Source: an uncultured Cellvibrionales bacterium
Lineage (GTDB): Bacteria > Pseudomonadota > Gammaproteobacteria > Pseudomonadales > Porticoccaceae
Direction: 5' to 3'
Assembly (NCBI GenBank): GCA_913031145.1
Contig: CAJWCO010000011.1
Coordinates: forward strand, 1-64,000
Length of the DNA stretch: 64,000 nucleotides
A program made the translations under genes and the position numbers. Of this stretch, positions 2,966 through 41,599 are shown in pieces; position 1 is the first letter of the stretch, and the number at the start of each line of letters is the position of its first letter. Below the pieces are notes generated by a model. That model ran no database searches and was not told the origin of the DNA. It saw nothing but the letters and a program-made list of their open reading frames with translations.

Positions 2966-3832
2966 ATGAATTGGTTAAGTCGTATCCGCCCCAGCGGTCC
3001 TACCTACAGTGACAGGTCAAATTCAGTCCCAGAGGGCTTATGGAAAAAGTGTCCGAAGTGCGCGGCACCCCTGTATCGCCCAGAGCTCGAGAAAAACTTG
3101 GATGTTTGCCCTAAATGTGAACACCATATGCGCATTGGGGCGCGCCGCCGCTTAGATATATTTCTTGATCCTGATGGTCGCGTTGAGTTGGGTATGGATG
3201 TCGAAACCGTTGATCAACTTAAGTTTCGAGATGTCAAACGTTACCGAGATAGAATTCTCGATGCACAAAAGAAAACTGGCGAGAAAGATGCGCTTCTTAC
3301 TATGGAAGGCACGTTGCGGGATTTACCTGTGGTGGTGTGTGCCTTTGAATTTGCGTTTCACGGAGGTTCAATGGGTTACGCAGTAGGCGAGCGGTTTACG
3401 CGTGCGGCTAATACCGCGTTGCACTCTAATAAGCCATTGATCTGTTTCTCTGCCACGGGGGGAGCGCGGATGCAAGAAGCGCTGATTTCCCTTATGCAAA
3501 TGGCGAAAACGAGTGCTGTGCTTGAGCGACTCCGGGTGGCGGGTGTGCCTTATGTATCCGTCATGACTGACCCGGTTTATGGAGGCGTATCTGCGAGCTT
3601 AGCGATGCTTGGAGACCTAAATATTGCAGAACCGGCTGCGCGAGCAGGCTTCGCAGGGCCGAACATCATTGAGCAGACAATCCGCCAAAAACTACCGAAA
3701 GGATTTCAGCGCAGTGAGTTTTTGTTAGAAAAGGGTCATATTGATATGATCATTAGCCGCCGCGAGCTGCGAGAGCGTATCGCAAGCCTTTTGTCGAAGT
3801 TTACGCATAGGCCCGAACCTGTCGATGTCTAA
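2966..3832 (+). CDS. accD: Acetyl-CoA carboxylase carboxyltransferase subunit beta AccD
   Basis: Beta subunit of the carboxyltransferase that moves CO2 from biotin-BCCP to acetyl-CoA, the first step of fatty acid synthesis; works with AccA. The N-terminal zinc ribbon is clear: Cys29, Cys32, Cys48 and Cys51 (KCPKC...VCPKC). The crotonase-fold domain follows with [30 protein letters not shown] and [11 protein letters not shown]. At 288 residues it has normal length. Its end overlaps the folC start by 8 bases, indicating translational coupling. Confidence 0.97.
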
Positions 3833-5108
3833 AACGCTTTTGGCTGAATGGTTAGATAGGTTAGAGAGGCAGCATCCGTTTGAGATCGACTTAGGACTGG
3901 AACGCGTTGCTAAGGTGTGGGGTCGCTTACAGCTGGAGGGTTACCGACAACCATTGCGGCCTCCCGTCACTATTTCAGTGGCAGGCACGAATGGAAAAGG
4001 CTCATGCGTTGCCGCAATGGAAGCTGTTCTGCTGGCTCATGGCGTTTCAGTCGGTGCATTTACCTCGCCACATTTTTTGAGATACAACGAACGAATTCGC
4101 GTTGCCGGACATCCCGTTGATGACGCGCTCATCATTAAAGCCTTTGAGTGTATAGACCAAGTTCGCGGTTCCATCTCATTGAGTTATTTCGAATATGGTA
4201 CCTTGGCAGCTTTGTGGATTTTTGCTGATCAATCGGTGAAAGTTCGTTTGCTTGAGGTGGGTCTGGGCGGGCGCTTGGATGCCGTAAATATTATTGACGC
4301 TGATGTTTCTGTGATAACCAGTATTGCGCTAGACCACCAGCAGTGGTTGGGGGAGACGGTGGCAGAGATTGCGAAAGAGAAATTAGGTATTGCGCGAGCA
4401 CACCGACCTCTCGTTTGGGGCGAGCGCGCCGTTTCTTTAGACTTTCAGAAGTTGATCGGTGGCACGATGGCTGAGCCGCAGGTCTTGGGGCGAGATTACG
4501 ATGCGCAATTGACTGGCGAATCTGCAACCATTTCGGTCGGGACAGTGCTCGGTCGCACCGAGGTGCCTGACATTACTGGCGACCTGACTCTTGTAGAGAG
4601 CAGAGCAATGGCACTCCAGGCATTGGCAGTCGCTGACATCCCTTTAGATGTAGGTCGATGTCAGCGCGCAATCAATACCCTGTCGATGCTGGGCCGCTTT
4701 CAGAGGACCACTTTTCGCGGTATACCTGTGATTTTAGATGTGGCTCATAATCCGGCAGCCGCTAAATTATTGTCCGATCGTTTGAGTGGCTTAGGTGGGA
4801 CTTTTCTAGCAGTGGCCTCGGTGCTGCAGGATAAAGATTGGGCGGGGATTGTCGCGTCGTTAGCCACTCAAATCACGCGGTGGCACTTGGCCAAAATCGC
4901 ATCAGAGGCACGAGCGGCTGATGCCCACTCTTTGTTACAAGTGGTGTACAATGAAGGGCTTGCGGGAATCTCATATGAGCATATATCTGACGCCTTTCTG
5001 TCGGCTATTGATCAGGCGGTTGAAGGCGAAAGTGTGGTTGTGTTGGGTTCTTTTCATACGGTGGCAGACGTGTTGAAAGTGATGGGCTCGGGAGAGCATG
5101 TTGGGTAA
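3825..5108 (+). CDS. folC: Bifunctional folylpolyglutamate/dihydrofolate synthase FolC
   Basis: Adds glutamate to dihydropteroate and polyglutamate tails to folates. The ATP-binding P-loop GTNGKGS is at residues 54-60, followed by the folate-loop region [13 protein letters not shown] and [13 protein letters not shown]; the C-terminal ligase domain has DVAHNPAA. 427 residues is typical. It overlaps accD by 8 bases and the next gene by 11 bases, so the accD-folC-SPOR block is probably one transcript. Confidence 0.96.
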
Positions 5109-7706: not shown

Positions 7707-8900
7707 GTGACCATGACAAAGCTAATCAGCGACGATTTTCATGACGACACGATCGCGATTCGTGGGGGTTATCATCGCACACCAGAAAAAGAGCATTCTG
7801 AGGCCCTATTTCTAACGTCAAGCTACGTCTTCGATAACTGTCAAGCTGCCGCGCAGTATTTTAGTAACGGGGTCGAGGGCAACGTTTATTCGCGCTACAC
7901 AAACCCAACGGTTCGGGCGTTCGAAGAACGATTGGCAGCCCTTGAAGGTGGTGAAAAAGCGGTAGCGACAGCCTCGGGAATGGCGGCAACATTGAGTGTT
8001 GTCATGAGTCTATTGAGAGCGGGCGACCACATTGTGTGCTCGCGGGATGTGTTTGGAAGCACTATCAGTTTGATGGACAATACAATTGCTAAATTTGGCG
8101 TCACAGTGACCTACGTGGGCTTAACAGACCTTCAAGGTTGGGAAAATGCACTCACACCGCAGACAAAAATGTTTTTTTGTGAGACGCCATCTAATCCGTT
8201 GTTGGAGATTGCTGATATCAGCGCGCTTTCTGGGTTAGCCAAGGCGGCAAAGTGTCTTCTCGTTGTCGATAACTGTCTGTGCACGCCTGCGCTTCAAAAA
8301 CCACTCGACTGGGGAGCGGATATTGTTGTGCACTCAGCGACAAAATATTTGGATGGGCAAGGCCGGTGTCTGGGCGGTGCGGTCGTTGGTAGTAAACACT
8401 TAATGGAGCCAGTGCTCGCATTCTTAAGGTGCGCGGGCCCCACTATGAGTGCATTTAATGCGTGGGTTTTTCTGAAAGGATTGGAAACACTAAATTTGCG
8501 CATGAGGGCTCATTCGGCAAGCGCGATGTCTCTTGCGTTATGGTTGCAAAAACAGTCAGGGGTTGTGTCGGTAAATTATCCAGGTCTCGAAAGCCATCTT
8601 GGACATGCCTTAGCGCGCCGACAGCAGAGCGATTTTGGCGGTGTTCTTTCCTTTTCTGTTAAAGGAATGCGAGATGCCGCTTGGCGTTTCATCGATGCGA
8701 CGAAGATGCTCTCACTCACAGCCAATTTGGGAGATGCAAAAAGTACGATAGTACACCCGGCAACAACGACTCACGGTCGATTGCATGAGAAACAGCGAGA
8801 AGTGGCGGGCATTACAGAAAATCTGATTAGGCTTTCTGTAGGCCTAGAACACGAAGCAGATATCAAGCGCGACCTGCAGTTGGGGCTCGACCAGATCTAA
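7707..8900 (+). CDS. metZ: O-succinylhomoserine sulfhydrylase MetZ
   Basis: PLP enzyme that makes homocysteine from O-succinylhomoserine and sulfide (direct sulfhydrylation). The Cys/Met-metabolism fold is clear: YSRYTNPTV, ATASGMAAT, ETPSNPLLEI, VDNC, and the Schiff-base lysine in SATKYLDGQGR (Lys213 from the GTG start). The GTG at 7707 and the ATG at 7713 are both possible starts. Naming as MetZ rather than MetB or MetY rests on its location after purF and the sequence around the PLP lysine. Confidence 0.92.
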   Translation: MTMTKLISDDFHDDTIAIRGGYHRTPEKEHSEALFLTSSYVFDNCQAAAQYFSNGVEGNVYSRYTNPTVRAFEERLAALEGGEKAVATASGMAATLSVVMSLLRAGDHIVCSRDVFGSTISLMDNTIAKFGVTVTYVGLTDLQGWENALTPQTKMFFCETPSNPLLEIADISALSGLAKAAKCLLVVDNCLCTPALQKPLDWGADIVVHSATKYLDGQGRCLGGAVVGSKHLMEPVLAFLRCAGPTMSAFNAWVFLKGLETLNLRMRAHSASAMSLALWLQKQSGVVSVNYPGLESHLGHALARRQQSDFGGVLSFSVKGMRDAAWRFIDATKMLSLTANLGDAKSTIVHPATTTHGRLHEKQREVAGITENLIRLSVGLEHEADIKRDLQLGLDQI

Positions 8901-41056: not shown

Positions 41057-41234
41057 CTCGAGAAATGATTCACCCAAAAGCGCTGTAGTTAGACTGGGCG
41101 TGCAAAAATTTCTAGCATGTGAAGACTGCCTTTTGCAACTATTATTTTCGAGAAAATGCCGATTATTTTTGTGCTACGGTGATTTTTTTCCACAGATACT
41201 AGAGGTTTCTTATAGAACTGTAACAAACGTTTTA

Positions 41235-41278
41235 TAAGTCATTGATTATTGCCAGACAAACCTGTAAGTCATTGATTA
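41235..41278. repeat. 14-bp direct repeat, 30-bp period
   Basis: TAAGTCATTGATTA occurs at 41235-41248 and 41265-41278, i.e. exactly 30 bp apart (about three helical turns), within the AT-rich half of the DnaA-box region. Confidence 0.9.
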
Positions 41279-41363
41279 ATATAGGCTTAATAAACTGGTC
41301 AATATTTAACCAATCTAACTCCGCACCTTGATCCTTGTAGCCTGAGGCATGGGTTTTAAACCA

Positions 41364-41384
41364 TTATCCACAAAGTTATCCACA
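41364..41384 (+). promoter_or_regulatory. Pair of perfect DnaA boxes
   Basis: TTATCCACA at 41364-41372 and 41376-41384, same orientation, starts 12 bp apart with AAG between. Both match the E. coli high-affinity R1-type sequence. Confidence 0.85.
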
Positions 41385-41390
41385 ATTTAT

Positions 41391-41408
41391 GTGAGTAACT
41401 TTACTCAC
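41391..41408. repeat. 18-bp inverted repeat next to the DnaA boxes
   Basis: GTGAGTAA-CT-TTACTCAC, perfect 8-bp arms around 2 bases, beginning 7 bases after the second DnaA box. Could be an operator for a dimeric protein. Confidence 0.8.
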
Positions 41409-41599
41409 CATTTTGGTGCGTACACATCGCGTATTTCGGTCAAGCATGGATGAGCGAATGGTGACGGGAGTCCCATTCTAATCGGCGGTTTGAATCAATA
41501 TTTTTTTAGGATCACCGCGTGATGCGGGTGTAACGGTTGCGTTATACTTTTATCCGCAGAGCCTTTTCTGCAAGGTGATGATCTTCTTTTGGGACGTCT

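Follow-up and report, generated by a model that had tools for sequence, protein, structure and literature searches.

Features of the intergenic region

The window, by which we mean the whole stretch of 64,000 nucleotides analysed here, contains at 41057-41599 a gene-free region flanked by a bamC-MBL hydrolase pair and by rsmJ. The GC content of this intergenic region is 0.398, and 0.324 in its part 41186-41330, against 0.491 for the window. The first-pass annotation, made from the sequence alone, had described here a cluster of DnaA boxes, an AT-rich block, two copies of a 14-mer (TAAGTCATTGATTA, starting at 41235 and 41265, 30 bp apart) and an inverted repeat, all of which we find in place (Table 1). 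The boxes that it listed do exist, but the one on the reverse strand, TTACTCACA, had been missed. It had also considered two perfect boxes so close to each other to be very improbable. The number of boxes alone is ordinary (2 perfect TTATNCACA boxes in the window vs 2.07 expected), and what is unusual is their arrangement, since the three-box pattern TTWTNCACA-3-TTWTNCACA-5-(reverse box) is matched at a single place of the 2.2-Mb genome, whereas the control gave no match (≤3 mismatches).

Table 1. Coordinates of the DnaA boxes, predicted protein-binding sites and repeats in the intergenic region.
Feature	Position	Strand	Remarks
Distal DnaA box, TTTTCCACA	41186-41194	+	TTWTNCACA match; 178 bp before box III
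IHF site 1 (predicted)	41235-41247	-	TAAGTCATTGATT on +, AATCAATGACTTA on -; perfect IHF consensus WATCAANNNNTTR
IHF site 2 (predicted)	41265-41277	-	Perfect IHF consensus; identical copy of site 1, 30 bp downstream
Putative Fis site, GGTCAATATTTAACC	41297-41311	none	Palindrome; perfect GNNYANNNNNTRNNC
Core DnaA box III, TTATCCACA	41364-41372	+	12 bp before box II
Core DnaA box II, TTATCCACA	41376-41384	+	The most conserved of the boxes; starts 14 bp ahead of box I
Core DnaA box I, TTACTCACA	41390-41398	-	Head-to-head with box II; one mismatch to TTWTNCACA
Inverted repeat GTGAGTAA-CT-TTACTCAC (= GTGAGTAACTTTACTCAC)	41391-41408		Perfect; half overlaps box I
Box TTATCCGCA	41550-41558		Outside the 41186-41398 element

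The starts of the three core boxes (III at 41364, II at 41376 and I, in reverse, at 41390) are spaced by 12 and 14 bp. Taking box III as zero, the Fis site is found at -67, the IHF sites at -99 and -129, and the forward distal DnaA box at -178. The sites for IHF and Fis are predicted from their agreement with the consensus, not from footprints (consensus sequences from PMC4585315, used for IHF, and PMC8682772).

Other kinds of features were also searched for. Neither an Rfam scan of the region (no known RNA family) nor a plasmid search gave any match, and no dif-like site was found within the window. We have discarded a SlmA-like reading of the inverted repeat, because its spacing does not fit the SlmA consensus and the repeat is not conserved.

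Conservation of the layout and chromosomal position

A comparison across relatives had been proposed as a check. The core, the IHF and Fis sites and the distal box are conserved, but the box at 41550-41558 was not found in relatives and the right half of the inverted repeat is absent from most of them, its left half (box I) alone being conserved. Of 18 family genomes, 17 keep the distal box, at -176 to -178; wherever it occurs, its distance to the core varies by no more than ~2 bp. IHF site 1 is kept at -127 to -129 in relatives. The Fis consensus is satisfied in 16 of the 18 members even though the letters vary, the changes being compensating. Box I, with its one mismatch in the window, carries two in the near relative L004 and is perfect (TTATGCACA or TTATTCACA) in the congeners L026, L027 and L029.

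To look beyond the family we have used two models, one of the whole element, built only from family sequences, and one of the short core. With the whole-element model, matches were obtained in 368 of the 392 genomes searched in the order and in 319 of the 369 in the class; the region of this genome that holds the origin genes gave no significant match. The same layout and register are preserved at 32 loci from ~25 families of the order, with the Fis match missing in some. An independent sample was provided by 117 named genomes selected solely by the exact core pattern. Among them, a perfect IHF site at -95 to -100 appears in 55 (shuffle mean 0.05), and a Fis match at -64 to -67 in 51 (shuffle mean 0.34). 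The interval from -163 to -190 contains a perfect DnaA box in 49 of them (shuffle mean 0.44). At these core-selected loci 67 IHF sites lie upstream, vs 3 in the downstream stretch of equal size.

Several observations concern gene context and copy number. The element is located directly downstream of the bamC-MBL pair in all 17 family loci L040-L056, even when rsmJ is farther off, and two other families also have several loci where it follows MBL. Some family members have two full copies, e.g. G033 (C1:1958145-1958371 and C1:1142354-1142579) and G023 (C15:17221-17440 and C15:24014-24230); in the two-copy members one copy comes after MBL and the other is elsewhere, in G023 beside nth-/sixA-like genes. 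In the order it is common for a genome to give 2-5 matches, which may be sets of the DARS1/DARS2 kind, and two Collimonas genomes have paired DARS-like cores in tandem, ~455 bp apart (L141 2441-2468 and 2897-2924; L147 5957-5984 and 6411-6438). While nearly all other genomes of the order match strongly, many in genus g40 of family f27 have weak matches or none, a possible lineage-specific loss or divergence of the element.

The genome of the window is in 56 contigs, and the chromosomal position of the element was estimated from complete relatives, with dnaA as a proxy for oriC and genome lengths rounded to 0.1 Mb. In 40 complete or near-complete genomes from 15 families, on a scale running from 0 at dnaA to 1 at the antipode, the best element has a mean position of 0.70; single genomes go from 0.14 to 1.0 and all 15 family means are above 0.5. 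The best copy in complete genomes of the order is usually mid-to-late in the replichore, nearly always far from dnaA. A DARS is expected between oriC and the terminus, and in complete relatives the element is so placed.

Comparison with E. coli and alternative readings

A DARS is defined by a core of three DnaA boxes, in which box I points against boxes II and III; the orientations and spacing are identical in DARS1 and DARS2 of E. coli (PMC5742627, PMC8682772). As to function, a DARS promotes the release of ADP from DnaA and increases ATP-DnaA. In MG1655 the starts of I and II are 14 bp apart and those of II and III 12 bp, both in DARS1 (bioD-uvrB intergenic region, NC_000913.3 813104-813139) and in DARS2 (ygdT-mutH interval, with the core at NC_000913.3 2969135-2969169). 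DARS1 is not in uvrB-ybhK or ybhK-moaA. A pseudo-core at L036:5451-5486 also has the 14/12 spacing, but the DARS2 core is at L036:5136-5170, as indicated both by the model search and by the gap of 3 bp that separates IBS1 from IBS2.

The window has the same core as E. coli DARS2 (III-12-II-14-I, identical orientations), together with two IHF sites on the side of box III, both perfect matches, a conserved Fis site with perfect consensus, and a further DnaA box at a distance of ~180 bp (-178, compared to -185 for box V of E. coli). DARS2 needs Fis as well as IHF. The distal box is in the opposite orientation, however, and the order of the sites is different. Going upstream from the core, E. coli has IHF (-71, -87), Fis (-125) and box V (reverse, -185), whereas the window has Fis (-67), IHF (-99), IHF (-129) and the forward box, i.e. 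IHF and Fis are swapped. The neighbouring genes also differ. Judging from its sequence, we consider that 41186-41398 is probably a DARS2-type DnaA-reactivating sequence; since the order core-Fis-IHF-IHF departs from core-IHF-Fis, it would be a DARS2-type variant rather than an E. coli-type DARS2. The first-pass annotation had mentioned a DnaA-adjusting locus like datA or DARS among its options, and this suggestion is well supported, specifically as a DARS2-type element, by the core geometry, the IHF and Fis sites and the distal box.

When applied to the E. coli loci, the whole-element model gives its best score to DARS1 (E 9e-10) and the next best to DARS2 (E 2e-6), where IBS2 falls on IHF site 2 in the alignment; datA and oriC rank below both. 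The core model also has DARS1 on top, but in its ranking the DARS2 core comes after fragments of datA and oriC. DARS1, which shares the three-box core, is the best match of both models, although next to its core any strong consensus for IHF or Fis is missing, unlike in the window.

Among the known systems, datA also deserves attention. A datA-type site, where IHF would loop the distal box onto the core boxes, stimulate the hydrolysis of DnaA-ATP and lower initiation, would fit the succession DnaA box, IHF, ~97 bp, DnaA box that E. coli datA shares with the window, IHF orientation included, and datA gives weak matches with the models. Both have tandem boxes 12 bp apart (boxes 7 and 2 in datA). 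On the other hand, datA is located near oriC, has boxes 2, 3 and 7 around one IHF site, and lacks the III-II-I core; a Fis site has not been described in it. The elements found here have another box set with the DARS core, two IHF sites in the window and in most cases a Fis site, and their position in relatives is far from dnaA, so that we regard a datA-type function as unlikely. A passive cluster titrating DnaA, devoid of nucleotide-exchange activity, is decidedly unlikely as well. Strong clustered boxes would bind DnaA whatever else happens, and DARS1, DARS2 and datA account for a large share of the chromosomal titration in E. coli according to PMC12371093; what titration leaves unexplained is the fixed spacing and orientation of the three boxes and the IHF/Fis register across many families. 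Very improbable, in our opinion, is a promoter region of a neighbour such as rsmJ regulated by these proteins. The element is indeed upstream of rsmJ in the window, and DnaA, IHF and Fis are also regulators of transcription, yet rsmJ is not directly downstream in several family genomes and in other families the element sits between unrelated genes.

The reading that had been named first, a relocated or secondary oriC, is the one to which we give hardly any credence. DnaA boxes, predicted IHF sites and AT-rich DNA are indeed found in the window, and E. coli oriC has DnaA boxes and an IHF site too, but the geometry of the boxes is different. The AT-rich direct repeats coincide with the predicted IHF sites and are not unwinding 13-mers. 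The GC skew, proposed as a check, has no switch at the boxes: it is positive on both sides of them and in 30 of the 32 2-kb bins of the window. It does drop near 42 kb, from ~0.12 (1-42000) to ~0.04 (42001-64000), but does not turn negative overall. The origin-type genes that were to be located (dnaA, rpmH and mnmG) are all away from the box cluster, on contig C22, which holds dnaA-dnaN-recF-gyrB, rpmH-rnpA-yidC-trmE and mnmG-gidB-parA-parB. There the skew changes sign between mnmG and rpmH, which points to this region as the oriC of this genome. Two AT-rich, gene-free stretches with one DnaA box each are found at the origin genes (locus L033), at 3823-4480 (mnmG-rpmH) and 8187-8660 (trmE-dnaA). 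Along these lines, none of 148 homologous loci from other genomes has origin genes next to the element, which is distant from dnaA in complete relatives.

Partner proteins, proposed mechanism and significance

The genome encodes the proteins with which a DARS works, i.e. DnaA, IHF, Fis and a candidate DiaA. DnaA has 289 of 467 residues identical to that of E. coli (global alignment) and keeps Asp269, Arg285 and Leu290, the latter in AID-2. Fis (NF001659), IHF-alpha, IHF-beta and also Hda (TIGR03420) score above their curated cut-offs. A SIS protein encoded between lpoA-like and dolP-like genes scores far below the curated cut-off of the DiaA model, and from this weak match together with the gene order it is probably DiaA.

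By analogy with the model described for DARS2 (PMC4245941, PMC8682772, PMC10380432), ADP-DnaA would bind boxes I and II head-to-head and box III would stabilise the complex formed on them. IHF and Fis would bend the upstream arm, bringing the distal DnaA box and Fis close to the core. ADP would then be released, and the freed DnaA could take ATP and become competent for initiation at oriC, in the mnmG/rpmH region. With oriC usually at a great distance, the replication of the element would come long after initiation and feed the next round.

The descriptions of DARS2 in PMC4245941 and PMC8682772 concern E. coli and other members of the Enterobacterales, together with Vibrio and Shewanella, and some papers confine DARS2 to the relatives of E. 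coli, these two genera included. A review, on the other hand, reports DARS1/DARS2-like sequences in many proteobacteria (PMC10380432, citing Fujimitsu 2009, the DARS discovery paper). Our literature search, of incomplete coverage, found no paper on DARS in Pseudomonadales. The order of the window, with Fis nearer to the core than IHF, was found in other orders too, and because of this the E. coli arrangement may be the derived one. We see evenly balanced chances that the layout of the window, DnaA box - IHF - (IHF) - Fis - core, represents an ancestral and near-universal DARS2 of the Gammaproteobacteria (in the GTDB sense, including Burkholderiales), with the E. coli order as a derived swap.

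Among the known elements, DARS2 is the principal one by which DnaA is reset before another round of replication. A counterpart defined by its sequence, with a fixed register of IHF, Fis and DnaA boxes in most of the genomes of both the order and the class, provides exact sites for deletion in laboratory strains such as Pseudomonas putida, and makes the generality of DnaA recharging directly testable. The swapped order of IHF and Fis is in itself a natural experiment on how the bending of DNA drives nucleotide release. If the layout of the window is truly ancestral, the recharging of DnaA from ADP to ATP at chromosomal sites would be a class-wide trait and no speciality of the relatives of E. 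coli.
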